Source of the DNA: Candidatus Methylomirabilota bacterium
GTDB taxonomy: Bacteria; Methylomirabilota; Methylomirabilia; Methylomirabilales; Methylomirabilaceae
Reading direction: 5' to 3'
DNA length: 41,830 nucleotides
Assembly: GCA_023249055.1 (NCBI GenBank)
Contig: JAHFDH010000003.1
Coordinates: 1-41,830, forward strand
The position numbers and the translations under genes were made by a program. Shown piece after piece: positions 23,136-34,850 of this stretch (within the stretch, counting starts at the first letter, position 1; each line of letters begins with the position of its first letter). Under the pieces are notes generated by a model. It searched no databases. It was given only the letters and a program-made list of their open reading frames with translations, and was not told the origin of the DNA.

Positions 23136-24509
23136 TCAGGCTCCGCCCATACCTGCTCGATAGGCATCACTGGATTCGTAGTAATCAAGTCCGGAGTGGT
23201 CCAGCACCTCCTCTCCGACCAGGATGCGCAAGGTGTTTGTCAACTTGAGATGCTGGATGAACAGGTCGTGCTCCGGCTTGAGGTCTGGTCGGGCCATAGG
23301 AGACTTGAAATAGAACGAGAGCCACTCCTGAATCCCCGATAACCCGGCCCGTTGGGCCAGGTCCAGAAACAGCGCTAAGTCGAGGGCTACCGGCGCCGCC
23401 AGGATAGAATCCCGACAGAGGAAGTTAATCTTGATCTGCATCGGCTGGCCGAGCCAACCGAAGATATCGATGTTGTCCCATCCCTCCTTGGCGTCGCCGC
23501 GCGGCGGATAGTACTCGATCCGAATCTTGTGGAAGACCTGGCCGTACAGCTCCGGATAGAGCTCGGGCTGCACAATAGCCTCCAGCACGGAGCCCTTGCT
23601 GACCTCCTTGGTCCTGAACGATCCCTGATCATCCAACACCTCGCCGTCCCGGTTCCCAAGGATGTTGGTAGAAAACCAGCCGGTCAGCCCCAGCATCTTG
23701 GCTTTCAGCCCGGGCGCGACTACGGTTTTGAGAAAGGTCTGGCCGGTCTTGAAATCCTTTCCGGCAATCGGAACGTGGCGCTGACGAGCGAATTCAACCA
23801 GCGCCGGGACATCGACCGCCAGATTGGGTGAGCCGTTCGCAAAGGGCACACCGGCTGAAATGGCAGCATAGGCATAGATCATGCTCGATGAGATTTCCGG
23901 GGCGTTCGCCTTCAGGCCGGCCTCAAACGCCTCAATGGTCTCGTGCACCGAAGCCGGCTGCATGAAGACCTCTGTCGATCCGCACCAGATCATCACGGCC
24001 CGCTGGATCCCTTCCCTTTGACGGAAGGCCTCGATATCCTCGATCAGCATGTCCGCCAGGTGCTTCTTGCTCAGGCCCGACTTCAGGTTGGTCCCTGAGA
24101 GCCTGCGCACATACGCTTGATCAAAGACTGCCGGCCACGGTCTCACCGCCTCCAGTTGATCTTTGACCTGATCCAGCATCTCTCTCGGCAGGACTCCGGC
24201 ATGGCACGCGGTCTGATAGGCGTCCTCGGGAAAAATATCCCAGCCGCCGAAGACCAGATTGTTCAGGTCTGCGAGGGGGACGACCTCCTTAATCGGCGCA
24301 TAGCGAGGACTGGTCCGCTTGCCAAGGCGCATCCGCTGCATCTGCGTGAGAGAACCGTACGGTTGAGACAGTCCCTTGTTGATCAAGTGGACTCCCGCAA
24401 TGAGCGTCGTGGCCACCGCCCCCAGCCCGGGGATCAACACGCCCAACTTACCATGAGGGGACGCAATGTCCCGTTTCAATTCAGGATAGAATGAACTCTT
24501 TTGGCTCAT
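23136..24509 (-). CDS. inositol-3-phosphate synthase (myo-inositol-1-phosphate synthase)
   Basis: VLIPGLGAVATTLIAGVHLINKG; GWDIFPEDAYQTA; GKDFKTGQTFLKTVVAPGLKAKMLGLTGWFSTNILGNRDGEVLDDQGSFRTKEVSKGSVL. Confidence 0.95.
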   Translation of the reverse strand: MSQKSSFYPELKRDIASPHGKLGVLIPGLGAVATTLIAGVHLINKGLSQPYGSLTQMQRMRLGKRTSPRYAPIKEVVPLADLNNLVFGGWDIFPEDAYQTACHAGVLPREMLDQVKDQLEAVRPWPAVFDQAYVRRLSGTNLKSGLSKKHLADMLIEDIEAFRQREGIQRAVMIWCGSTEVFMQPASVHETIEAFEAGLKANAPEISSSMIYAYAAISAGVPFANGSPNLAVDVPALVEFARQRHVPIAGKDFKTGQTFLKTVVAPGLKAKMLGLTGWFSTNILGNRDGEVLDDQGSFRTKEVSKGSVLEAIVQPELYPELYGQVFHKIRIEYYPPRGDAKEGWDNIDIFGWLGQPMQIKINFLCRDSILAAPVALDLALFLDLAQRAGLSGIQEWLSFYFKSPMARPDLKPEHDLFIQHLKLTNTLRILVGEEVLDHSGLDYYESSDAYRAGMGGA

Positions 24510-25705
24510 ACCTGCACCCCTTCCCTATATGAGTTCCACAATACGACCGTGAAAAAGATCGGCGCTCCAATCGCCGAGAGAATCAGAAACCAATGCGCTT
24601 TTCCAAACGCCGAGAGGATCACCACAAGGTAGATAAAATCCCGCCTTGCGAGGGCATCGGCAAGAACAGAGAGGCGGGACGGGGCTTCGGAGGTCGTGAT
24701 GGATGTAAAGAGCGGTCCCTCCGAGGTCTTATGCCGCATCGTCTGTTGGTAGACGAATCCCGCCGAGAGGAGGCCTCCCACCGTTGCCGAGCCGGCCATC
24801 AGCAGAGGCAACAGCGCCCTATCGGCCATCCACCATCCCAGACCGATACACACGAATACCGCCGAGTGTACGGCATTATCCCCCCAGAAATCCAGGAGAC
24901 CGCCAAAACGAGATTCCAGATATTTGAGTCTGGCGATCTCCCCATCGCAGCCGTCCAGGATCGAATGCAGCAGGAACAGCAGCGCGCCGATCAGTTGATA
25001 TGCCGGCGCGGATGAGAGGAAAAACAGCGCCCCCACGACACCTATCGTCACGCTCACTGCGGTCATCTGGTTTGGGGTCATATCCGTGTCCACGAGACGC
25101 CGCGTGACGGCCAGCGAGATCTTCCGCTCGACATGCTTCGACATGAAGCCTTCCGTATCTTTGACCAGTCCCTGCAGGAGCCACCGCTCGGCATCAGGAA
25201 GATCCGCTCGGTTCGCAATCCTGACCCAGCACCCCTCATCTGTGGACGCGCTTACTTGGCGGTAGGCTTGCTCCAGTTCGGAGAAGAGGGACAGGTCGTC
25301 GTTCGTGCGCTCGATCATCGACAGAAGGGTGTTGGGGGTAGCCGTTTCGACGGCAGCGATCCCGGCGGTTGGAGCACAGATCGCTTCAGCGTGTAACGGC
25401 ATCTCGGTCAGATACGTGAGCAGCGAGGGATGGGGGAGAAGGTGAACGGTCAACACGAGGATACGGGGGGAGGGTTGATAGCCGGCTAACCTCGCTGGAG
25501 GCAGCAGCACCGCCTTCGTTCCTTCCAGCAGCTTCCCGCACTTAAATGACCCATTATCCACAACCAGGATATCCTGGTAGCCGGCACGAGAGGCTACCAA
25601 CACGATCCGTCGAAGCAATGGGAGACCCAATATCACGGTATCCGGACCGACCTCGCCCGAACCCTTTGAGATCACGATGACGATTGTGGCTGCTTTACGG
25701 ACCAT
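24506..25705 (-). CDS. CDP-alcohol phosphatidyltransferase with degenerate nucleotidyltransferase-like N-terminal domain
   Basis: Complete motif DGCDGEIARLKYLESRFGGLLDFWGDN (D-x2-DG-x2-AR-x8-G-x3-D-x3-D). N-terminus MVRKAATIVIVISKGSGEVGPDTVILGLPLLRRIV. ATGA overlap with Ino1. Confidence 0.88.
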   Translation of the reverse strand: MVRKAATIVIVISKGSGEVGPDTVILGLPLLRRIVLVASRAGYQDILVVDNGSFKCGKLLEGTKAVLLPPARLAGYQPSPRILVLTVHLLPHPSLLTYLTEMPLHAEAICAPTAGIAAVETATPNTLLSMIERTNDDLSLFSELEQAYRQVSASTDEGCWVRIANRADLPDAERWLLQGLVKDTEGFMSKHVERKISLAVTRRLVDTDMTPNQMTAVSVTIGVVGALFFLSSAPAYQLIGALLFLLHSILDGCDGEIARLKYLESRFGGLLDFWGDNAVHSAVFVCIGLGWWMADRALLPLLMAGSATVGGLLSAGFVYQQTMRHKTSEGPLFTSITTSEAPSRLSVLADALARRDFIYLVVILSAFGKAHWFLILSAIGAPIFFTVVLWNSYREGVQV

Positions 25706-25750
25706 TCGTTTACACCACACTATAGGGGGCGCTGTTTGCTGCGCTCTCAT

Positions 25751-25790
25751 GGGCAGGGCGTGCCCTGCCCCTACAAGGCTAACGCCTTGC
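25751..25790 (-). repeat. palindromic dispersed repeat GTAGGGGCAGGGCACGCCCTGCCC plus adjacent hairpin CAAGGC-GTTA-GCCTTG
   Basis: 9-bp arms GGGCAGGGC/GCCCTGCCC (25751-25770); 6-bp arms immediately adjacent. The TAG inside the repeat is the stop codon of the Gfo/Idh ORF. Confidence 0.75.
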
Positions 25791-26805
25791 CTCCTTGGTT
25801 ATCCGATTCCTTGGCGCTATGCAGAAGCTGCACGCAGCGCGACGCCATGGTCAGATTCTCGCCGCCGGGCTCAACAGCCGAAATCTCCAGCAGAAAATCG
25901 TCCCTCACCAGGCGAAACCACTCCGGGTGATGGGAGCCCTGCGAGAGCGGCTGCTCAAACGTCCAGCTCTGCTCGCCCTCTTCGCTTTTCAGTACCAGGG
26001 TACCGTCCTCTATCCGGACGGTCCCGCGGGTTCCTTCGATAACCGCACGATTGCTCCGCGAAGAAGAGGCCCACGTCAAAAGGATTTCGGCCTCGGCTCC
26101 AGACGACTCCAGTCGGACACTCGCCGTATCCTCAACCGGCCACTCCGGATGCCGGCGCTTTTCCAGCGTGGCCGCGATCGTCCGCGGCTCCTCCCCCAGC
26201 CAATCCAACACGATATACAGGGCGTGGTAGCCGTGATCCAGCAGGATGCCGCCGCCTGCCATGGCCGGATCCAACCGCCAGTTATCGCGGGTCGCGCTGT
26301 CGATGCGATTCGGCAACGACTGCACCGCGATCGATGGTTCGCATCTATGAACGTGCCAGCTTATATGCTGTACCGTCCCAATCTGTCCTTGCCGGATCAG
26401 GGCCGTTGCCTGCATGATGATCGGGGCATATCGCCAGTTGTGGACCGTATGGAGAATCCGACCGCTTTCCGCTCTGGCATCTCTTATCAGCCGCAGCTCG
26501 TCGGGGGTGAGCACGAGCGGCTTTTCGCACAGCACATGCAGTCCTCGGCTCAAAGCCAGCTGTATCAGGGATGCGTGGGTTCCAGGGGGTGTGCAGATAT
26601 CGACGAAATCGATGGTGTCGGCAGCCAACATCGCCGACACGTCGGTGTAGAGCCTGGCTTCAGGAAAACGCCATCGCTCCTGCGCGACCCTGGATTCAAG
26701 AGCATCGGCGGCAGCAATAATCCGGGCCCGCCCGCATCCTTCCCATCCCGGCAGATGCCCATTCACCGCCACATTTCCCAAGCCAACGATCGCACCTTTC
26801 AACAT
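25771..26805 (-). CDS. Gfo/Idh/MocA family NAD(P)-dependent oxidoreductase
   Basis: GAIVGLGNVAVNGHLPGW; DFVDICTPPGTHASLIQLALSRGLHVLCEKPLVLTPDE; GGGILLDHGYHALYIVLDWLG. Confidence 0.92.
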   Translation of the reverse strand: MLKGAIVGLGNVAVNGHLPGWEGCGRARIIAAADALESRVAQERWRFPEARLYTDVSAMLAADTIDFVDICTPPGTHASLIQLALSRGLHVLCEKPLVLTPDELRLIRDARAESGRILHTVHNWRYAPIIMQATALIRQGQIGTVQHISWHVHRCEPSIAVQSLPNRIDSATRDNWRLDPAMAGGGILLDHGYHALYIVLDWLGEEPRTIAATLEKRRHPEWPVEDTASVRLESSGAEAEILLTWASSSRSNRAVIEGTRGTVRIEDGTLVLKSEEGEQSWTFEQPLSQGSHHPEWFRLVRDDFLLEISAVEPGGENLTMASRCVQLLHSAKESDNQGGKALAL

Positions 26806-26867
26806 AGCTTAACAACGGGGATTAAAGGTTGGGGGTTGCGGATTAGATATACGAAAGCATTCCTCAA

Positions 26868-26888
26868 TACCCTAACCCCCATACCCTG
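26868..26888 (-). repeat. G-rich motif CAGGGTATGGGGGTTAGGGTAT at aminotransferase stop codon
   Basis: Near-identical 16-mer recurs at 29090-29105 (GGGTATAGGGGTTAGG) at another gene end in the same operon. Confidence 0.6.
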
Positions 26889-28197
26889 TTTTTTTCAATT
26901 CGGCGAACGCCTCATCGAGGATGGCCAGACCGTCCAGCGCCTGCGCCTCGGTGATAACAAGCGGCGGGTTGATCCGGATGTTATGGGAATAGCACATGGC
27001 GAGCAGTCCTCGTTTCATGCAGCTCTGAAACAGCGTCTGGGTGAGGGATTTCGGAAGCGGTTCCTTGGTCTGCCTATCCTTCACCAGTTCGATCCCCAGC
27101 AAGAGTCCTCGACCCCGCACGTCGCCGATAAACGGGTATTTCTCTTTCATCGCTTCCAGTTGCTTCAGCATAGTCGCGCCGACGCGCTTCGCATTCGCAA
27201 CAAGCTGCTCCTTCAGAATCACCTCGAGGGCGGCCAGCCCGGCTGTAGCCGCGAGCGGATTGCCTCCATAGCTCGAGGAACTGCCGCTCGGATTGCTGAA
27301 CGGCTTGTGCGCCATCAGTTCTTGTGTCGAGATAACCCCGCTGACCGGAAATCCTCCGCCTATTCCCTTGCCGACCGTCATCACATCAGGCACAATCGGC
27401 TCGTGATCGCACCCCCACATCGAACCGGTACGGCCGAATCCTGTGAGCATCTCGTCGGCGATCAGCAGGGCGCCATGATCCTTGGCAATCGCCTGCACCG
27501 CGCCCAAGAATCCTGGAGGCGGAATCACGTTGCCCGCGGTTCCCTGGATCGGTTCCACTATGACCGCGGCAATCTCGCCCTGGGTCTGATATCGGATCAC
27601 ATCACGCAAGAAGTCCGCACAGGCGAGGCCGCAATCGGGATACCGGAGCCTCAAGGGGCAGCGATAACAGTTGGCGTACGGGGCGCTGTACAGACCGGGC
27701 ATGTAAGGCCCCAACTGCTTCTTGAAGTCGTCCCCCAACAGCCCAAGGACCGCGCCCGTCTTGCCGTGGAATCCACCCCAAAACCCGACAAACTCGAACC
27801 GCTTCGTCACTGATTTGGCCAGTCGGAACGCGGCCTCGACCGCCTCCGCCCCGCCCGAAAACATCTGGATCCGCTTGAGTCCTCGCGGGGTGATTGACGC
27901 GAGCAGCGTCAGAAATCGGGCCCGGTTCTCGGTGGTAAAGCTGCCGAACGTCAGCCGCTCAATCTGAGCCTTCATCGCCTCGACATAATGCGGGTGCGTG
28001 TGCCCGATGCTTCCCACACCGATTCCCGCCATGAAATCGAGATACCGGTTGCCGTCCTCATCGATCAGGGTGCACCCTTCCCCTCTTGCCATCGCCAACC
28101 CGGAATACAGCGCAATCGACTGCAGCCCAGGGGCCATGTGGCGCGCCTCCCGCTTGACGATCGCCCGTGACCGCTTTCCAGGAATAGTCCGCTTCAT
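26872..28197 (-). CDS. class III (PLP) aminotransferase
   Basis: DEDGNRYLDFMAGIGVGSIGHTHP; MFSGGAEAVEAAFRLAK; LLIADEMLTGFGRTGSMWGCDHEPIVPDVMTVGKGIGGGFPVSGVISTQE. Start MKRTIPGKRSR at 28197. Confidence 0.93.
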   Translation of the reverse strand: MKRTIPGKRSRAIVKREARHMAPGLQSIALYSGLAMARGEGCTLIDEDGNRYLDFMAGIGVGSIGHTHPHYVEAMKAQIERLTFGSFTTENRARFLTLLASITPRGLKRIQMFSGGAEAVEAAFRLAKSVTKRFEFVGFWGGFHGKTGAVLGLLGDDFKKQLGPYMPGLYSAPYANCYRCPLRLRYPDCGLACADFLRDVIRYQTQGEIAAVIVEPIQGTAGNVIPPPGFLGAVQAIAKDHGALLIADEMLTGFGRTGSMWGCDHEPIVPDVMTVGKGIGGGFPVSGVISTQELMAHKPFSNPSGSSSSYGGNPLAATAGLAALEVILKEQLVANAKRVGATMLKQLEAMKEKYPFIGDVRGRGLLLGIELVKDRQTKEPLPKSLTQTLFQSCMKRGLLAMCYSHNIRINPPLVITEAQALDGLAILDEAFAELKKTGYGG

Positions 28198-29057
28198 AGG
28201 AGCGCTTCCTTCCTTACGCAATGCAGCAGCCATGCGGCAATCCGGGACGCGGCCTCCTCGCGGAACAGCGCAAACGAAGGCCAGGCGTTAATGTCGATAA
28301 GAACAATCTTCCCCGCAGGCGTAATAATAGCATCCCCTCCATAGACCTCAAGACCGATAGCGGCGGCCGCCTGTTGCGTGAGGGCTTGTAACGCCTCCTC
28401 CGAGAAGGGATACCGCGCCAACTCCTGATCTCGGTGATAAAACCATCTGAACCATGCGCCCTCCTGACGACCCATACGCGGCTTCCCGATCCCATAGAAC
28501 TTGATCAAATCACCCGGAACGTGCTGCTGCAGAACCACACGGGAGATTCCCCTGTCGTGGAGTACTGCCAGCGCCGCGCGGAGCTGCTCCAGAGACGGCA
28601 CCAGTTCGACATCCCCGGATTGGGTATTATGGACATCCGCCCGCTTGATCCAGATCGGGAACGTATACGACTCCAGTTGTGGCGAAGAATGGGCCGGGCC
28701 AGACGAGTTGCTTGAGATGATCTGACTTCTTGGGATCGAAATCGCTGACCCAACAAGGAGTGGAATCATGCGGTCCCGATAGGTGTTCAGCACAGCCTGC
28801 AGAGGATTGACGTGGGGGATGCCTTTCGTCTCCAACGGTTCAAGCAGGCCGAGGGTTTCGATCCGCTCGCACATCAAAAATATGAGCGCCGGAGACGGGT
28901 CATCGATCCCCCTCAGTTCCTCCGGCATTTTGAGGTGCACCTGATAGCCGGCTGCCTCAACATGTTTCGCGACGAGCCTCAGGATCTCGGCATCATCGAA
29001 TTCTCGACCGGGCGAGTGCTGCCGTTCACGATAAATCCCCCAAAGATGCGGTATCAT
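28194..29057 (-). CDS. ATP-grasp domain protein (RimK/ITPK-like)
   Basis: TFPIWIKRADVHNTQSGDV; VVLQQHVPGDLIKFYGIG; AIGLEVYGGDAIITPAGKIVLIDINAWPSFALFREEAASRIAAWL. ATGA overlap with aminotransferase. Confidence 0.8.
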   Translation of the reverse strand: MIPHLWGIYRERQHSPGREFDDAEILRLVAKHVEAAGYQVHLKMPEELRGIDDPSPALIFLMCERIETLGLLEPLETKGIPHVNPLQAVLNTYRDRMIPLLVGSAISIPRSQIISSNSSGPAHSSPQLESYTFPIWIKRADVHNTQSGDVELVPSLEQLRAALAVLHDRGISRVVLQQHVPGDLIKFYGIGKPRMGRQEGAWFRWFYHRDQELARYPFSEEALQALTQQAAAAIGLEVYGGDAIITPAGKIVLIDINAWPSFALFREEAASRIAAWLLHCVRKEALL

Positions 29058-29083
29058 GAAGCGCTGCCTCCGTTCCTAATAAT

Positions 29084-29107
29084 CCCCATCCTAACCCCTA
29101 TACCCCG
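29084..29107 (-). repeat. G-rich motif GCGGGGTATAGGGGTTAGGATGGGG at nucleotidyltransferase stop codon
   Basis: Directly read; shares GGGTATNGGGGTTAGG with 26868-26888. Confidence 0.6.
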
Positions 29108-29829
29108 CTTTGTAATAAGGTTTCAGCCAACTGGAGGTCCTCCGCGCGATCGACATCGATGACCTGGTCAATGATCGCCCCATAAACCGGCTCTCCACGG
29201 GCGACCAGCCATGCCAAAAAGTCCCGAAGCCGGTTCACCGTATCGGGATGAGGAGCCTCCGCAAAGACCGAACCGGATACAAGGTAGAGTCCGGCCGTTA
29301 CAACGTCACCCGAGGCGCCACCGATGCTTGTGACGCGCCCGGAAGGATCAAGGGTCACCCAAAGCGGCTTCTCGTCAGCAACAAACGGCGTCACGGCTAA
29401 GATAACGGACGCCTGGCGGTAGCGCATGACCTGATCGACAAAGCGGTGAAACGCCGGTTCCGGACAGATCCAGTCTACGGTGGACATGAGGATGAGGCCT
29501 GGACCCGATCGTCTGCCGACCTCCCAGAAGCTTTCATACGATGAGCGCGTCGTTTTCACGATGCAGTGCATGTCGAGATTCGGGAAACGCTCCCGGACAA
29601 ACGTCGCACACTCCCGGTCATTCTCATTGAAGATGATCCGTAGCTGCGTAATACCGGCCTTCACAAAATTACTTACGACCCGCTCGATCAGCGGAACGCC
29701 TGCAACGGGCACCATCGACTTCGGCATCCTCAGACCGTCCCGTTTCAACCGGGACCCTTCCCCCGCTGCGATGATGCCTCCTATCAGAGGTTCGCCAGAG
29801 TCCAGTCGAGGGGTGGTGGGCCGGTTCAC
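29098..29829 (-). CDS. NTP-transferase (sugar/inositol-phosphate cytidylyltransferase-like)
   Basis: GGIIAAGEGSRLKRDGLRMPKSMVPVAGVPLIERVVSNFVKAGITQLRIIFNE; STVDWICPEPAFHRFVDQV. GTG start overlapping HAD stop (GTGA). Confidence 0.9.
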   Translation of the reverse strand: MNRPTTPRLDSGEPLIGGIIAAGEGSRLKRDGLRMPKSMVPVAGVPLIERVVSNFVKAGITQLRIIFNENDRECATFVRERFPNLDMHCIVKTTRSSYESFWEVGRRSGPGLILMSTVDWICPEPAFHRFVDQVMRYRQASVILAVTPFVADEKPLWVTLDPSGRVTSIGGASGDVVTAGLYLVSGSVFAEAPHPDTVNRLRDFLAWLVARGEPVYGAIIDQVIDVDRAEDLQLAETLLQSGV

Positions 29830-30515
29830 AGCAGTATCTCGCGAAGATCCGTCAAGGACTTGATCATAGGGTCATCCGGACAGCAGGGAACGAGAGGGCC
29901 GGAGTGATCTGAGACCAACCAGATATGGGCCATCCCAAGACCCTTCGCCCCCTTCATGTCTCGAGGGAGTGAGTCCCCGACAAAGATCGCCTCTCGCGGG
30001 TCGAGTTGTAACTGTGTCAAGGCAGCCTGAAAGATCCTGGGGTCCGGCTTAATGAACCCGACACGCGCCGAATCGATGAATACACTCATCAATGGGGCCA
30101 GCCCCGTATCGAGACACACCTGTTCGAGATTGCCGTAGAAGTTTGAGACGATACCCAGTCGAAATCGAGTCGATAGTTCACGCAACGTTTCGATATTGGA
30201 ACGAATCTTATCCAGCGAGTCTTGCAGAAACCGGTCGCATAGCCGCAATGCTAACTTTGAATCGGCGATATTCAGCGCCTCAAGCACTCCGGTGACCAGG
30301 AGCAGAAGGCTCTCTCGCAACGAGCAGCCTAAAAGTCTTCGCGCCACCAGTGCGTCATCGGCAGCATAGAACGCTCGATCGTATCGATCCCGGTCTGCCT
30401 CCACATGTTCCGCGAGGTAGAGCGAATAGAATCGGTCTTTCCAGGCAATCCCGTCGGCGTCAAGGGTTCCCCCGTAGTCAAACAGGACTGCCTTCGCCGA
30501 TCCGTTCACCGCCAT
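29826..30515 (-). CDS. HAD-superfamily hydrolase
   Basis: AVLFDYGGTLDADGI; LGIVSNFYGNLEQVCLDTGLAP; GFIKPDPRIFQAALTQLQLDPREAIFVGDSLPRDMKGAKGLGM. Start MAVNGSAKAVLFDYG at 30515. Confidence 0.92.
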   Translation of the reverse strand: MAVNGSAKAVLFDYGGTLDADGIAWKDRFYSLYLAEHVEADRDRYDRAFYAADDALVARRLLGCSLRESLLLLVTGVLEALNIADSKLALRLCDRFLQDSLDKIRSNIETLRELSTRFRLGIVSNFYGNLEQVCLDTGLAPLMSVFIDSARVGFIKPDPRIFQAALTQLQLDPREAIFVGDSLPRDMKGAKGLGMAHIWLVSDHSGPLVPCCPDDPMIKSLTDLREILL

Positions 30516-31570
30516 CAGCCTTCCGCCTGTCTGGGTGCGCCGCCGATCCCCATCTTCATTGCAAGCAGGATGAGAAGTCCGGGAATCGCCCAAGTCACCT
30601 CTCTCCCTCGCCGAATAATACTGTAAACTGCGCCCTGCGCGGCAGGCAGCCCCAAGACCGAAAAGACCGCGACCCGCACCGTTTCAGCGCTCCCAACCCG
30701 ACCCGGGATAAAAAAGATAATGGTATTCAGCACCATCGCCAGACTCTCCACGGCTACTGCCATCTCGATGCTCGGCTTTGCTGACAGCCACTGCAGCACA
30801 ATGTAGGTTTCCAGCAAACCGCCGCACCATCCCACCAGACACAGACACGTCGCCCAATAAAAGACAGGCATACGGGTCTTATAGAAGAGCGCAAGCCATC
30901 GATCCAGTGATGCAGTGGCGTGCCATTCCGGTTTGATCTGCTCCGGCTTGATCCCGATTTTCACCAGCCCGCGGATCAACGTCCCGAAGGCCCCTCTTTT
31001 CAGCGCCCAGAAGGCGGCGACAACGGCGACTCCCATCCCCCCTGCCAGTATCAGTGCGGCGACCCGTAGCCCTGTGGGAAGCGCAAACTGGGTCACAGCA
31101 ATGCTCAAACTCAGACTGAGAAATAAGACCTGCGCCACGATTTCCGCGTGCTTGTGCACCATGATCGAGGTCACCGACCGGCTGAACCCGACCGATCTGC
31201 TCAGTAGATGCGCTTTGACCGGCTCCCCCGCCAAGTTGGCGGGCGGCACAAAATAGTTAACGGAGTCGCCGACGAGGTAGACGCCAAACATTCGCCAGTA
31301 TCCGATCTGTCTGGCCCTGGAACCGATCAGGACCCACCAACCTGTCATGAAAGCCATCTGCGCAAAGAGGTAGAGAACGACCAGCAGAAAGAACCATTGT
31401 CCGATGACTGCAATATTCGCCCGGATAGCCGGCCATCCGATCCTTCCGCAGAGCCAGACGATCCCCAGCAACCCCGCAAGCATGAGCAGGGGCCGCAGCA
31501 CAGCGCTAAACCTTTTGATACCGCTTATCACCATAGACGATCCGGCTGCAGGATGTTCATCCGCATACAC
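30515..31570 (-). CDS. lysylphosphatidylglycerol synthase TM region-like (UPF0104/flippase-like) integral membrane protein
   Basis: Multiple TM helices; GDSVNYFVPPANLAGEPVKAHLLSRSVGFSRSVTSIMVHKHAEIV; FFIPGRVGSAETVRVAVFSVLG. Confidence 0.82.
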   Translation of the reverse strand: MYADEHPAAGSSMVISGIKRFSAVLRPLLMLAGLLGIVWLCGRIGWPAIRANIAVIGQWFFLLVVLYLFAQMAFMTGWWVLIGSRARQIGYWRMFGVYLVGDSVNYFVPPANLAGEPVKAHLLSRSVGFSRSVTSIMVHKHAEIVAQVLFLSLSLSIAVTQFALPTGLRVAALILAGGMGVAVVAAFWALKRGAFGTLIRGLVKIGIKPEQIKPEWHATASLDRWLALFYKTRMPVFYWATCLCLVGWCGGLLETYIVLQWLSAKPSIEMAVAVESLAMVLNTIIFFIPGRVGSAETVRVAVFSVLGLPAAQGAVYSIIRRGREVTWAIPGLLILLAMKMGIGGAPRQAEG

Positions 31571-31573
31571 GGC

Positions 31574-33139
31574 TTACAACTGCTCCATAAAGGACGCGAT
31601 CTCATCGAGTCTGACGTTTCGCACGGCGATCTCGGGCGTATAGATAACCTCGTCGGCCGCCCAGACCAAGGTTCCCTTGACCTCCTTGCCGACCCCGATG
31701 ATGTTGGAGAGGATCGAGAGGATATTGTCGTTGATCCGCACCGTATTCGGTTTCAGCGGCGCGACGATTCGCCCGTCCTTGATGATGTATGAATCGCCAA
31801 CGACTGTACAGGTAAAGTCCCCCGCTCGCAGCCCATTGATCGGATAGGTATACCAGATCCGGCCGACCAGCAGGCCGTCTTTCACGGTGCCGATCAACTC
31901 CTCCAGACTCTGATCTCCACCCTGTACGATAGCATTTGTGGAAGCGATGCCGGGTTGGACGCCGAACTGCCGGCCGCCGCCCGCCCAGAACCGGAACCCG
32001 TTCCGCGGTACAATGGCGCCGCCATGTTCGTTCGGGTCTGCCCCCAGTTTCTCTATGCTCCTGGGATCTCTCAAGATCCGCTGTTGTTCATAATAGCTTG
32101 CAAGCAGCCCGACCAGTTTGCCTCGCTGGATCAGCCGTGTTTTCCCCGTTGGCAGCCCCTCGCAGGTAATCCCCTTGCTGCCCATCAGCCCGCGCTGCGC
32201 GCCGTGGTCATACAGGGTCAACCGACTCGATGCCACGCGCTTGCCGAGCCGTCCCATGAACGGAGAGCTGTCGCTGTAGAAATTGCCGAGACTGAGCGAC
32301 GGCAGAATCAGATTGTTCAGAAAGTCGGCCACCGGCTGACGTCCAAAGATGACCGTATACTTCCCGCCCTTGATCCGCTCCCCGCCGATCGCCGCAAGGG
32401 CGTTCTGTGCGGCCTCTACACCGGCGGCGTCAGTGAACTGATCCAGGCGAGTCCCGGCGGAACAGCCGCTGCCCTTGGAGGCCTTGGCCTCGACCATCGC
32501 GGTGATGAAGGCCATGATCAGCGTCGATTCATCGGTCTGGACCTCCGGCATGGCCGTCGAGGCGATCGCAATACGCTCCTGCTGGATGGTCACGTCGCCG
32601 CCGACGATGAGGCCAAGCTCTTTGATTCGATCCTGGGCGCCCGCCAGTTCCATCAACCTGGGGGAGTTGAGAAATGTTTTCAAGCTCCCCCGCAACACTC
32701 TCCAGCCGACCTCGACCAACTCCTCGTCCCGAATCTTCATCAGCTTCGGATCATGGTAGCGGCGAAGCCTCCGCCGCTCACCCGTCGGTCTCGGCAGCGA
32801 CGAGAACTCAGGATCGGCGACGGCGCCGCGTCTGGCCTTTTCGAGCGCCCTTTTGACTCCATCGAGGCTCAGATCGCTCGGCTCGCTCCCGAACCCGACC
32901 GTGATGCCGGCCTCTGTCTTGAACACCGCCGTGATTCCAAGACCGTACGATTCGCTCGACTTCGGCTCTTCGACGCCATTGCAGGGGATGTGCGAGGTGT
33001 AGTTCAGCCGGGCCAGGAGGTTGCCGTTGCTCGCTGCGAACAGTTCAGCCTCGGTCACCTGCTCGGCCGACCTCAGATACGCCAGCCCCTGTTCAACAGC
33101 CTTCGCGAGTTCAGCAGTTGAGACCATCATAAGCCTCAC
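31574..33139 (-). CDS. TldD/PmbA (TldE) family metallopeptidase subunit
   Basis: AGITVGFGSEPSDLSLDGVKRALEKAR; LTLYDHGAQRGLMGSKGITCEGLPTGKTRLIQRGKLVGLLASYYEQQ; GDFTCTVVGDSYIIKDGRIVAPLKPNTVRINDNI. Confidence 0.87.
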   Translation of the reverse strand: MRLMMVSTAELAKAVEQGLAYLRSAEQVTEAELFAASNGNLLARLNYTSHIPCNGVEEPKSSESYGLGITAVFKTEAGITVGFGSEPSDLSLDGVKRALEKARRGAVADPEFSSLPRPTGERRRLRRYHDPKLMKIRDEELVEVGWRVLRGSLKTFLNSPRLMELAGAQDRIKELGLIVGGDVTIQQERIAIASTAMPEVQTDESTLIMAFITAMVEAKASKGSGCSAGTRLDQFTDAAGVEAAQNALAAIGGERIKGGKYTVIFGRQPVADFLNNLILPSLSLGNFYSDSSPFMGRLGKRVASSRLTLYDHGAQRGLMGSKGITCEGLPTGKTRLIQRGKLVGLLASYYEQQRILRDPRSIEKLGADPNEHGGAIVPRNGFRFWAGGGRQFGVQPGIASTNAIVQGGDQSLEELIGTVKDGLLVGRIWYTYPINGLRAGDFTCTVVGDSYIIKDGRIVAPLKPNTVRINDNILSILSNIIGVGKEVKGTLVWAADEVIYTPEIAVRNVRLDEIASFMEQL

Positions 33140-33142
33140 ATG

Positions 33143-33265
33143 GTTAGCTATCAGCTATTAGCCGTCAGCTTAGATTAGACTCGACGTCGTCCGGTCCATT
33201 CACCAGGGTTACGAACCGCTTGCTCCGCACTCCATGTTCTTGCTGAGCGCTGACGGCTGACAGCC
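33143..33265. repeat. intergenic inverted word-repeat pair (AGCTATCAGCTATTAGCCGTCAGCTTA ... GCTGAGCGCTGACGGCTGACAGCC)
   Basis: Arms at 33143-33172 and 33242-33265 are complementary over an AGCCGTCAGC/GCTGACGGCT core; lies between the tldD stop and the next start. Confidence 0.6.
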
Positions 33266-33275
33266 TGTATTTCGG

Positions 33276-34850
33276 TTACTTGCTGATTCCGGTGAGACGG
33301 GCGCGGCTGCGCATGGTGGGACCCCCGTTGCCAAGCCGCTTGGTCTGCATCGGCTGGCCCTTGCCGCAGTTGGGGATCGGGTAGAGACGGAAGTCGTTTC
33401 CCACGGCATCCACCTTCATGAGGTAGTCTTTGGTGTCGGCCATGATCCCGCCGTTACAGAACAGTTCTCCGATCTGGCCGTTCTTAATCTCGTACACCTT
33501 CATGGCCGTGATTCGGAAATTCTCACGCGATTCAGCAATCGAGGGGGTCCGGTGCCCCACGAGGTAGTAGCCGTGGGGAATCTCCCGGATAATCTCCCCG
33601 GGGTCCCGTTCGCCGGGACCGAACACCGTATTTGACATTCTGATCAAGGGGACCAGTGAGGCGTCGGTCGCCTTATACGACCCATTCGGCGGGACACCCA
33701 AGATCGCAGCGGTCTGCCGGCTGTTCATAAAGCCTGTAAAGATGCCGCGGTCGATGTGCGTGACACGCGTGGCCGGCGTCCCCTCGTGATCGTACTTGTA
33801 GTGGCCATACCCGGGGAGAGAGGGATCGGAGAAGGCTGATACGAGAGGAGAGGCGATCGGCTGGCCCAGTTGATGCTCATGAAGGTTTCGAAATAGCCAG
33901 CTTCGGCCTGCATAGGAGGTTTCCAGCTTCAACGCGCGGTCCAACTCGGTCGGGTGGCCGACAATCTCGTGCGCCGTCAGGGTGTTGTAGTGCGGGTCGG
34001 TCACGACGACAACCTCCCGATCGGTGGCTTTCAGAGGCCTGGCATTGCACAGACTCACGGCATCTTTCGTGAGGTTGGCGCAGAAAGTCCGGAAATCCGG
34101 GAATCGAATGGACTCCTCGTGCACCCCTCGGGTTAAGGCCTCCCATCCGCGCTGGTGGCCCATGTAATCGTACAGCTCCTGCGTGCCCGATGTGCCGTGG
34201 GCGACGATGAAGCAGGTTCCCTGAGTCAGGGCAAAGGTCTGATCGATGTTGGCCCCCTCGGAGCTGCAGAACAGTTCCCGGGTCAACAGGGTAAAGGCCG
34301 AGATGAACGTATACTTGACATGAGGGTCGAGTGCGAGGGTGCGCTTGGAGGTCTCCGTCGTCAGCGCAACGAGTTCGTCTAACGGGACGGTACGCGGGTC
34401 GATCTCGAACTGAGCAGGAACAGTATCCTGATAGATGTCGATGGGGGCGAGGGTCGTACTGCCCAGAGCGTCGGCTAGAGGGCCGAACTCCGCGCGAGCC
34501 GATGTCTTTCGCTCGGCGTTGGCCAGGGCGCGATGATGCGCGTGGCGAAGTCCATCCTTCACCACCCGCTCCATGCTATCCAGGTCGGCTGCGCCGAGCG
34601 AGCGTCCGAAATAGCCCGGCGCAACCACCCCATTACCGGACAAGGCGCGGATACCGATCGCAAAGCCATAATCTCTGGTACTATGCTTACTCCCGCCGTT
34701 CTCCGCGGCAGCCGCCTGCCCTTCATCGACCTGCACCCGAATATCAGCGTAGCGACAGCCACGAAGCGTCTTCCGGTAGCGGGTGGCAAGATCAAAGATC
34801 ATCGGTTGAATCTGATCGATGATCTGGATGGTCATCGGCTGTGCCAGCAT
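33276..34850 (-). CDS. tldD: TldD family metalloprotease
   Basis: HExxxH motif in NTLTAHEIVGHPTELDRAL; C-terminal GHRTPSIAESRENFRITAMKVYEIKNGQIGELFCNGGIMADTKDYLMKVDAVGNDF. Confidence 0.92.
   Translation of the reverse strand: MLAQPMTIQIIDQIQPMIFDLATRYRKTLRGCRYADIRVQVDEGQAAAAENGGSKHSTRDYGFAIGIRALSGNGVVAPGYFGRSLGAADLDSMERVVKDGLRHAHHRALANAERKTSARAEFGPLADALGSTTLAPIDIYQDTVPAQFEIDPRTVPLDELVALTTETSKRTLALDPHVKYTFISAFTLLTRELFCSSEGANIDQTFALTQGTCFIVAHGTSGTQELYDYMGHQRGWEALTRGVHEESIRFPDFRTFCANLTKDAVSLCNARPLKATDREVVVVTDPHYNTLTAHEIVGHPTELDRALKLETSYAGRSWLFRNLHEHQLGQPIASPLVSAFSDPSLPGYGHYKYDHEGTPATRVTHIDRGIFTGFMNSRQTAAILGVPPNGSYKATDASLVPLIRMSNTVFGPGERDPGEIIREIPHGYYLVGHRTPSIAESRENFRITAMKVYEIKNGQIGELFCNGGIMADTKDYLMKVDAVGNDFRLYPIPNCGKGQPMQTKRLGNGGPTMRSRARLTGISK

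Follow-up and report, generated by a model that had tools for sequence, protein, structure and literature searches.

Gene content of the locus

The window analysed here is a 41,830-nt stretch of a Candidatus Methylomirabilota genome (GenBank assembly GCA_023249055.1, contig JAHFDH010000003.1), from a Methylomirabilis-like member of the phylum with Ca. Methylomirabilis records among its relatives. The minus strand of the window carries ten co-directional open reading frames (ORFs) at 23136-34850, as described in an initial annotation made from the sequence alone, whose broad family assignments also agree with Pfam and NCBIfam profiles. Eight of these genes, from a flippase-like protein to Ino1 (23136-31570), form a conserved cassette that probably makes an inositol-derived, possibly amino-sugar-like, membrane-lipid headgroup. 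The genes are listed below from the highest coordinate downwards.

31574-34850, minus strand: TldD/PmbA pair, divergent; a neighbour, outside the conserved unit
30515..31570, minus strand: flippase-like membrane protein (LPG_synthase_TM / HpnL-like; PF03706, 90.4 bits)
29826..30515, minus strand: HAD hydrolase (PF00702), proposed (amino)inositol-phosphate phosphatase
29098..29829, minus strand: MobA/IPCT-like nucleotidyltransferase (NTP; PF12804/PF00483), proposed CTP:(amino)inositol-phosphate cytidylyltransferase
28194..29057, minus strand: ATP-grasp enzyme (Foldseek; weak ITPK match), proposed (amino)inositol kinase, alternatively carboxylate ligase
26872..28197, minus strand: class III PLP aminotransferase (PF00202, 343.7 bits)
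25771..26805, minus strand: Gfo/Idh/MocA dehydrogenase (PF01408/PF22725), proposed inositol dehydrogenase
24506..25750, minus strand: CDP-alcohol phosphotransferase (CDPOH) of the AF2299/DIPPS type (motif, AF2299 match), proposed headgroup transferase
23136..24509, minus strand: Ino1, myo-inositol-1-phosphate synthase (PF07994, 323.9 bits; PF01658, 103.2 bits)

With the starts of the longest ORFs, the intergenic gaps are 136, 3, -79, -4, 40, -40, 66, 20 and -4 nt. The two large overlaps are best read as artefacts of over-long starts: because the flippase/HAD and ATP-grasp/aminotransferase junctions read TGATG and ATGA, respectively, the HAD start is best placed at 30515 (longest ORF: 30593) and the aminotransferase start at 28197 (longest ORF: 28233). 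A search for internal promoters between the genes found 3 promoter-like sites against 4.4 expected, nothing above chance.

Conservation across the phylum

The cassette was surveyed in 95 Methylomirabilota genomes, 53 of which contain its ATP-grasp gene, and 55 ATP-grasp loci were compared, several of them representing one genome duplicated from two collections and some being cut by contig ends. Neighbourhood analysis around the ATP-grasp gene, which the initial annotation had proposed as a check, shows that the core order HAD-NTP-ATPgrasp-aminotransferase-Gfo-CDPOH stays together in Methylomirabilis, other Methylomirabilales and Rokubacteria, the wider loci belonging to Ca. Rokuibacteriota apart from one record titled Nitrospirae (L047). 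The aminotransferase accompanies the ATP-grasp gene in all 55 loci, NTP in 53, HAD in 51, Gfo/Idh in 50 and CDPOH in 48, with missing genes mostly explained by truncation at a contig end, and this conservation is far above chance.

Ino1 directly follows the core in Methylomirabilales and in L047. Most Rokubacteria lack it at that position and encode, close to squalene-hopene cyclase, a shorter Ino1 type (PF01658, ~121 bits) that PF07994 alone misses and that was sought with a second query. Ino1 of either type is present in 53/53 genomes with the ATP-grasp gene and in 25/42 of those lacking this gene (Fisher p about 1e-7, with no correction for phylogeny).

The TldD/PmbA pair, previously suggested to process a conjugated peptide in the pathway, is not co-inherited with the cassette. 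The pair is found in two cassette-less genomes (G006 and G026), and lies on a different contig from the cassette in four others (G020, G035, G037 and G086). In G006, locus L090 reads TldD-PmbA-(methanethiol-oxidase-like gene)-MlaC-HpnN-acyl-CoA ligase, containing the neighbours seen in the window but not the eight genes; this natural empty site bounds the unit at 23136-31570 and, together with the independent occurrence of the pair, leads us to reject TldD/PmbA as pathway proteases. The methanethiol-oxidase-like gene (L090:10741-12123) occupies the place of the cassette. The window pair scores far below the canonical TldD and PmbA models, and most relatives carry a canonical pair in addition to the divergent one.

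Enzymes of probable CDP-inositol chemistry

CDP-activated inositol-type headgroup chemistry, as envisaged in the initial annotation, is well supported. CDPOH retains an intact DxxDGxxARx8GxxxDxxxD motif and matches AF2299 (E=1.4e-22) and IPCT-DIPPS (E=1.4e-16) in sequence, while its structural model (pLDDT 84.7) has AF2299 and 4MND as best PDB matches. Against the curated IPCT-DIPPS equivalog model NF041135 it scores 97.9 bits, short of the cut-off of 580, and is therefore a relative rather than the Thermococcales equivalog. Its N-terminal domain is nucleotidyltransferase-like but has lost the signature, which is retained by the separate NTP, where the AAGxGxR and PK motifs and Asp118/Asp226 show little or no variation across two phyla. 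The cassette shares with IPCT-DIPPS/AF2299 and the CDP-inositol route of hyperthermophiles the CDP-inositol donor logic and the CDPOH fold and motif, but differs in having a separate, presumably active NTP, a degenerate fused N-terminal domain and extra amination genes. A CDP-inositol lipid route is also known from Rhodothermus. Sequential action of NTP and CDPOH is supported by a natural fusion in a cassette-less relative (L092; G023 contig C10, 12086-17809), in which Ino1 and then a fused IPCT-CDPOH protein, resembling 4MND over both domains (E=6e-49), come after squalene-hopene cyclase; this locus lacks the ATP-grasp, aminotransferase and Gfo genes.

Catalytic motifs are intact in NTP, the aminotransferase, Gfo/Idh and CDPOH. 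The aminotransferase, with a conserved catalytic-lysine motif TVGKG[IVM]GGG, is the most conserved core member phylum-wide (68-77% outside the genus, the nearest relatives excepted), and Gfo/Idh homologues conserve the EKP lysine and D-H-G-[WY]-H. The oxidation and amination branch put forward in the initial annotation is supported. The HAD protein has the motif DxGGT, without the usual second Asp, in 30/31 Methylomirabilota homologues and in 4/4 from Bacteroidales, and this motif I, common to two phyla, may reflect unusual HAD chemistry.

Related gene clusters in Bacteroidales

A tblastn search of plasmid records with the ATP-grasp protein recovered four Bacteroidales homologues (31-35% identity, 94-98% query coverage). 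Their loci read Ino1-NTP-[hypothetical protein = ATP-grasp]-CDPOH-LPG_TM-HAD in Bacteroides finegoldii (L086), NTP-ATPgrasp-CDPOH-HAD-Ino1 in Prevotella nigrescens (L089) and NTP-ATPgrasp-CDPOH-HAD in Parabacteroides distasonis (L088), and the same genes were detected by homology in an unannotated Phocaeicola record (L087). The NTP-ATPgrasp-CDPOH-HAD core is thus present in 4/4 records, with Ino1 nearby in 3/4 and a flippase-like gene in 2/4, and the ATP-grasp gene adjoins the NTP gene in all four, as it does in Methylomirabilota. Identities to the Bacteroidales proteins are 52-54% for Ino1, 28-33% for NTP and 27-32% for HAD, and 23-24% for the flippase homologues of B. finegoldii and Phocaeicola. 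Aminotransferase and Gfo/Idh genes are absent from these operons, and no close relative of the aminotransferase was found in the plasmid records. A search of wider taxa with patterns from the ATP-grasp alignment returned only Methylomirabilota and one record titled Nitrospirae, because the patterns are lineage-specific.

An ‘alternative’ inositol-lipid cluster, of unconfirmed function, was proposed in Bacteroides vulgatus and Prevotella by Heaver et al. 2022 (PMC9246714), naming NTP (BVU_RS13095), Ptrans (BVU_RS13105) and HAD (BVU_RS13115); B. vulgatus, in which this kind of cluster is reported, produces phosphoinositol dihydroceramide (PMC9246714). The four Bacteroidales loci above match this cluster. 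The term ‘ATP-grasp’ is absent from the main text of that paper, and the locus numbering suggests that BVU_RS13100 may be the ATP-grasp homologue. The Methylomirabilota cassette contains the clustered Ino1, NTP, CDPOH and HAD genes by which this cluster type is recognized, and also shares the LPG-synthase-like and ATP-grasp genes, but differs in its added aminotransferase and Gfo/Idh, in the extra degenerate nucleotidyltransferase-like domain of CDPOH, and in its hopanoid/Mla neighbourhood. The description of the whole cluster as undescribed therefore needs qualification, since the subset of Ino1, NTP, CDPOH, HAD and flippase-like genes had already been proposed (PMC9246714), while the aminotransferase and dehydrogenase are additional. 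The cassette extends this known but unproven cluster type by these two enzymes.

Proposed pathway

The reading we prefer, to which we give an even chance, is that the eight genes form a lipid-headgroup cassette whose product is an aminoinositol phospholipid. In this scheme, the well-supported formation of inositol phosphate by Ino1 would be followed by removal of the phosphate by HAD. The free cyclitol would next be the substrate of Gfo/Idh and the class III aminotransferase, which would replace a ring hydroxyl with an amino group to give an inosamine, as in hygromycin A biosynthesis. The ATP-grasp enzyme would then re-phosphorylate the (amino)inositol where NTP needs it. Charging of an inositol-type phosphate with CTP by NTP is well supported, and would here presumably yield CDP-aminoinositol; transfer of the phospho-headgroup to a membrane acceptor by the AF2299-type CDPOH is likewise well supported, and export of the product may fall to the flippase-like protein. 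The same HAD/ATP-grasp logic without aminotransferase and Gfo/Idh would yield plain phosphoinositol lipids in Bacteroidales.

Aminocyclitol antibiotic pathways, such as that of streptomycin, resemble the cassette in the clustering of inositol-phosphate synthase, phosphatase (a role assumed for HAD), Gfo/Idh-type dehydrogenase and aminotransferase, but the cassette has a class III aminotransferase, ATP-grasp, CDP activation and a lipid transferase, and no antibiotic genes were seen in it. For example, the hygromycin A cluster contains the myo-inositol-phosphate synthase (MIPS) Hyg18, phosphatase Hyg25, PF01408 dehydrogenase Hyg17 and aminotransferase Hyg8 (PMC10949010).

Several observations weigh against this scheme. 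Its substrates, step order and acceptor lipid are all deduced from the genes, and the specificity of NTP for inositol is taken from context, its own match to the IPCT model NF041135 being weak (28.6 bits). The second catalytic Asp usual in such hydrolases is missing from HAD. The best named matches of the aminotransferase are of the GABA/ornithine type, with no inosose-specific match, and those of Gfo/Idh are D-xylose dehydrogenase and glucose-fructose oxidoreductase, not specifically inositol-type; its profile scores for D-xylose dehydrogenase Gfo6 (73.2 bits) and inositol 2-dehydrogenase IolG (72.4 bits, cut-off 355) are both below cut-off. For the ATP-grasp protein, matches to ITPK are weak (PF05770, 17.4 bits, cut-off 23; PDB ITPKs, E 0.005-0.04), and structural comparison ranks ligases before any kinase.

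Alternative readings

The last point bears on a reading in which the ATP-grasp protein is a carboxylate-amine ligase that adds an amino acid or peptide to an aminated inositol or lipid, giving an aminoacyl-inositol lipid. The best 50 Foldseek matches of its AlphaFold model (pLDDT 89.3) are ATP-grasp enzymes without exception, headed by D-Ala-D-Ala ligase, RimK and ArgX/LysX. By sequence it is closest to the ATP-grasp protein 7drm and to a RimK-type alpha-L-glutamate ligase, and the aminotransferase gene adjoins the ATP-grasp gene. However, the enzyme is equally a core member of Bacteroidales clusters without aminotransferase or Gfo/Idh, and its invariant metal motif D-x-N-x-W-P-S-F resembles the ITPK counterparts DINAFPGY and DVNVFPSY (in common, D-x-N-x-[FW]-P-[SG]-[FY]), whereas the RimK-type ligase has E-x-N. 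We consider the ligase somewhat unlikely, and tentatively favour a cyclitol kinase, though at less than an even chance, because the inositol pathway occurs in two phyla and the Bacteroidales operons have no aminotransferase. A plain CDP-inositol phospholipid pathway, with aminotransferase and Gfo/Idh merely co-transcribed to make or recycle something else, would fit the Bacteroidales clusters, which lack both genes, and the phosphoinositol ceramide of B. vulgatus; it appears rather unlikely, as every Methylomirabilota locus of sufficient length has the two genes interposed between ATP-grasp and CDPOH, across families whose ATP-grasp proteins are only ~50% identical.

HpnN and MlaC adjoin the cassette in the window in convergent orientation, the flippase-like protein is closest to HpnL (TIGR03476, 118.8 bits, below the cut-off of 195.65), in 8 genomes of two families the ATP-grasp gene has squalene-hopene cyclase about 3.5-15.2 kb away (less than one case expected by chance from a rough genome-size estimate, although the 8 genomes share descent), and the Rokubacteria-type Ino1 is within 18 kb of the cyclase in 43/58 genomes with both. 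This linkage suggests an outer-membrane or hopanoid context, and would accord with a hopanoid side-chain pathway that places the headgroup on bacteriohopanepolyol to form a new phosphocyclitol hopanoid. We regard such a product as unlikely: nearly all members of the phylum have hopanoid genes, but only 53/95 genomes have the cassette, so that the link is one of place and not of strict co-occurrence; cassette and cyclase gene are far apart in the complete genome of the same genus as the window (G005, a single 2.75-Mb contig); one locus (L078) contains HpnI and HpnJ as well as the cassette; and characterized CDPOH relatives use other acceptors, namely a glycerolipid, inositol-phosphate or similar. 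A soluble compatible solute of the di-inositol-phosphate type, suggested by IPCT-DIPPS/AF2299 being the closest family to CDPOH, is highly improbable: the locus has a flippase-like gene and neighbours involved in lipid transport, record titles place the hosts in soil, groundwater and freshwater and not in hot environments, and the Bacteroidales homologues belong to a lipid-associated cluster.

The aminoinositol phospholipid scheme in its fullest form predicts a new class of membrane lipid, made via a CDP-aminocyclitol, and an ATP-grasp cyclitol kinase which would at the same time be the overlooked missing enzyme of the Bacteroides/Prevotella inositol-sphingolipid route; this combination is speculative, and we hold it less probable than the phospholipid product itself. 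The ATP-grasp enzyme is a candidate for the missing part of that route, which names a concrete gene, the ‘hypothetical protein’ between NTP and CDPOH in the presumed inositol-sphingolipid clusters of gut Bacteroides/Prevotella. Through the cassette, a phylum that comprises nitrite-dependent methane oxidizers and soil bacteria becomes linked with the synthesis of inositol lipids, and the predicted aminated cyclitol lipid could serve as a biomarker. The literature searched on inositol lipids of Methylomirabilis yielded nothing informative.

Hopanoid neighbourhood and other loci

The hopanoid neighbourhood was not remarked on in the initial annotation, which had labelled the membrane protein an ‘LPGS-TM’ flippase; the flippase-like assignment stands, with the label corrected to HpnL-like. 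The bacteriohopanetetrol cyclitol ether pathway (HpnI/K/J) is alike in its hopanoid neighbourhood and cyclitol-like headgroup, but the cassette contains no HpnI, J or K and would use different chemistry. In L078 (7350-9913; G071 contig C198), the stretch from squalene-hopene cyclase to the cassette encodes HpnJ and HpnI, both above cut-off, which puts cyclitol-ether and CDP-inositol genes in one locus; this coexistence rules out the cassette as a general replacement for HpnI/J/K. The aminobacteriohopanetriol aminotransferase HpnO was considered as a possible identity of the cassette aminotransferase; its gene, hpnO, is described in the literature as hard to distinguish from other aminotransferases and usually located outside hpn clusters.

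In a Rokubacterium (L080:7811-12121; G037 contig C39), the interval separating squalene-hopene cyclase from the cassette encodes PEP mutase, phosphonopyruvate decarboxylase and an NTP transferase, forming a candidate phosphonolipid pathway in the cassette locus, and the overlapping locus L074 contains a CDP-alcohol-transferase match near these phosphonate genes. In G001 (L023:4691-8558), ~3.9 kb separates the flippase and HAD genes, and the HpnH model gives a weak radical-SAM match there. In G005 (C1:37461-38398), the HpnH match beside squalene-hopene cyclase is split into two neighbouring pieces with a slight overlap, suggesting a frameshift or sequencing error.

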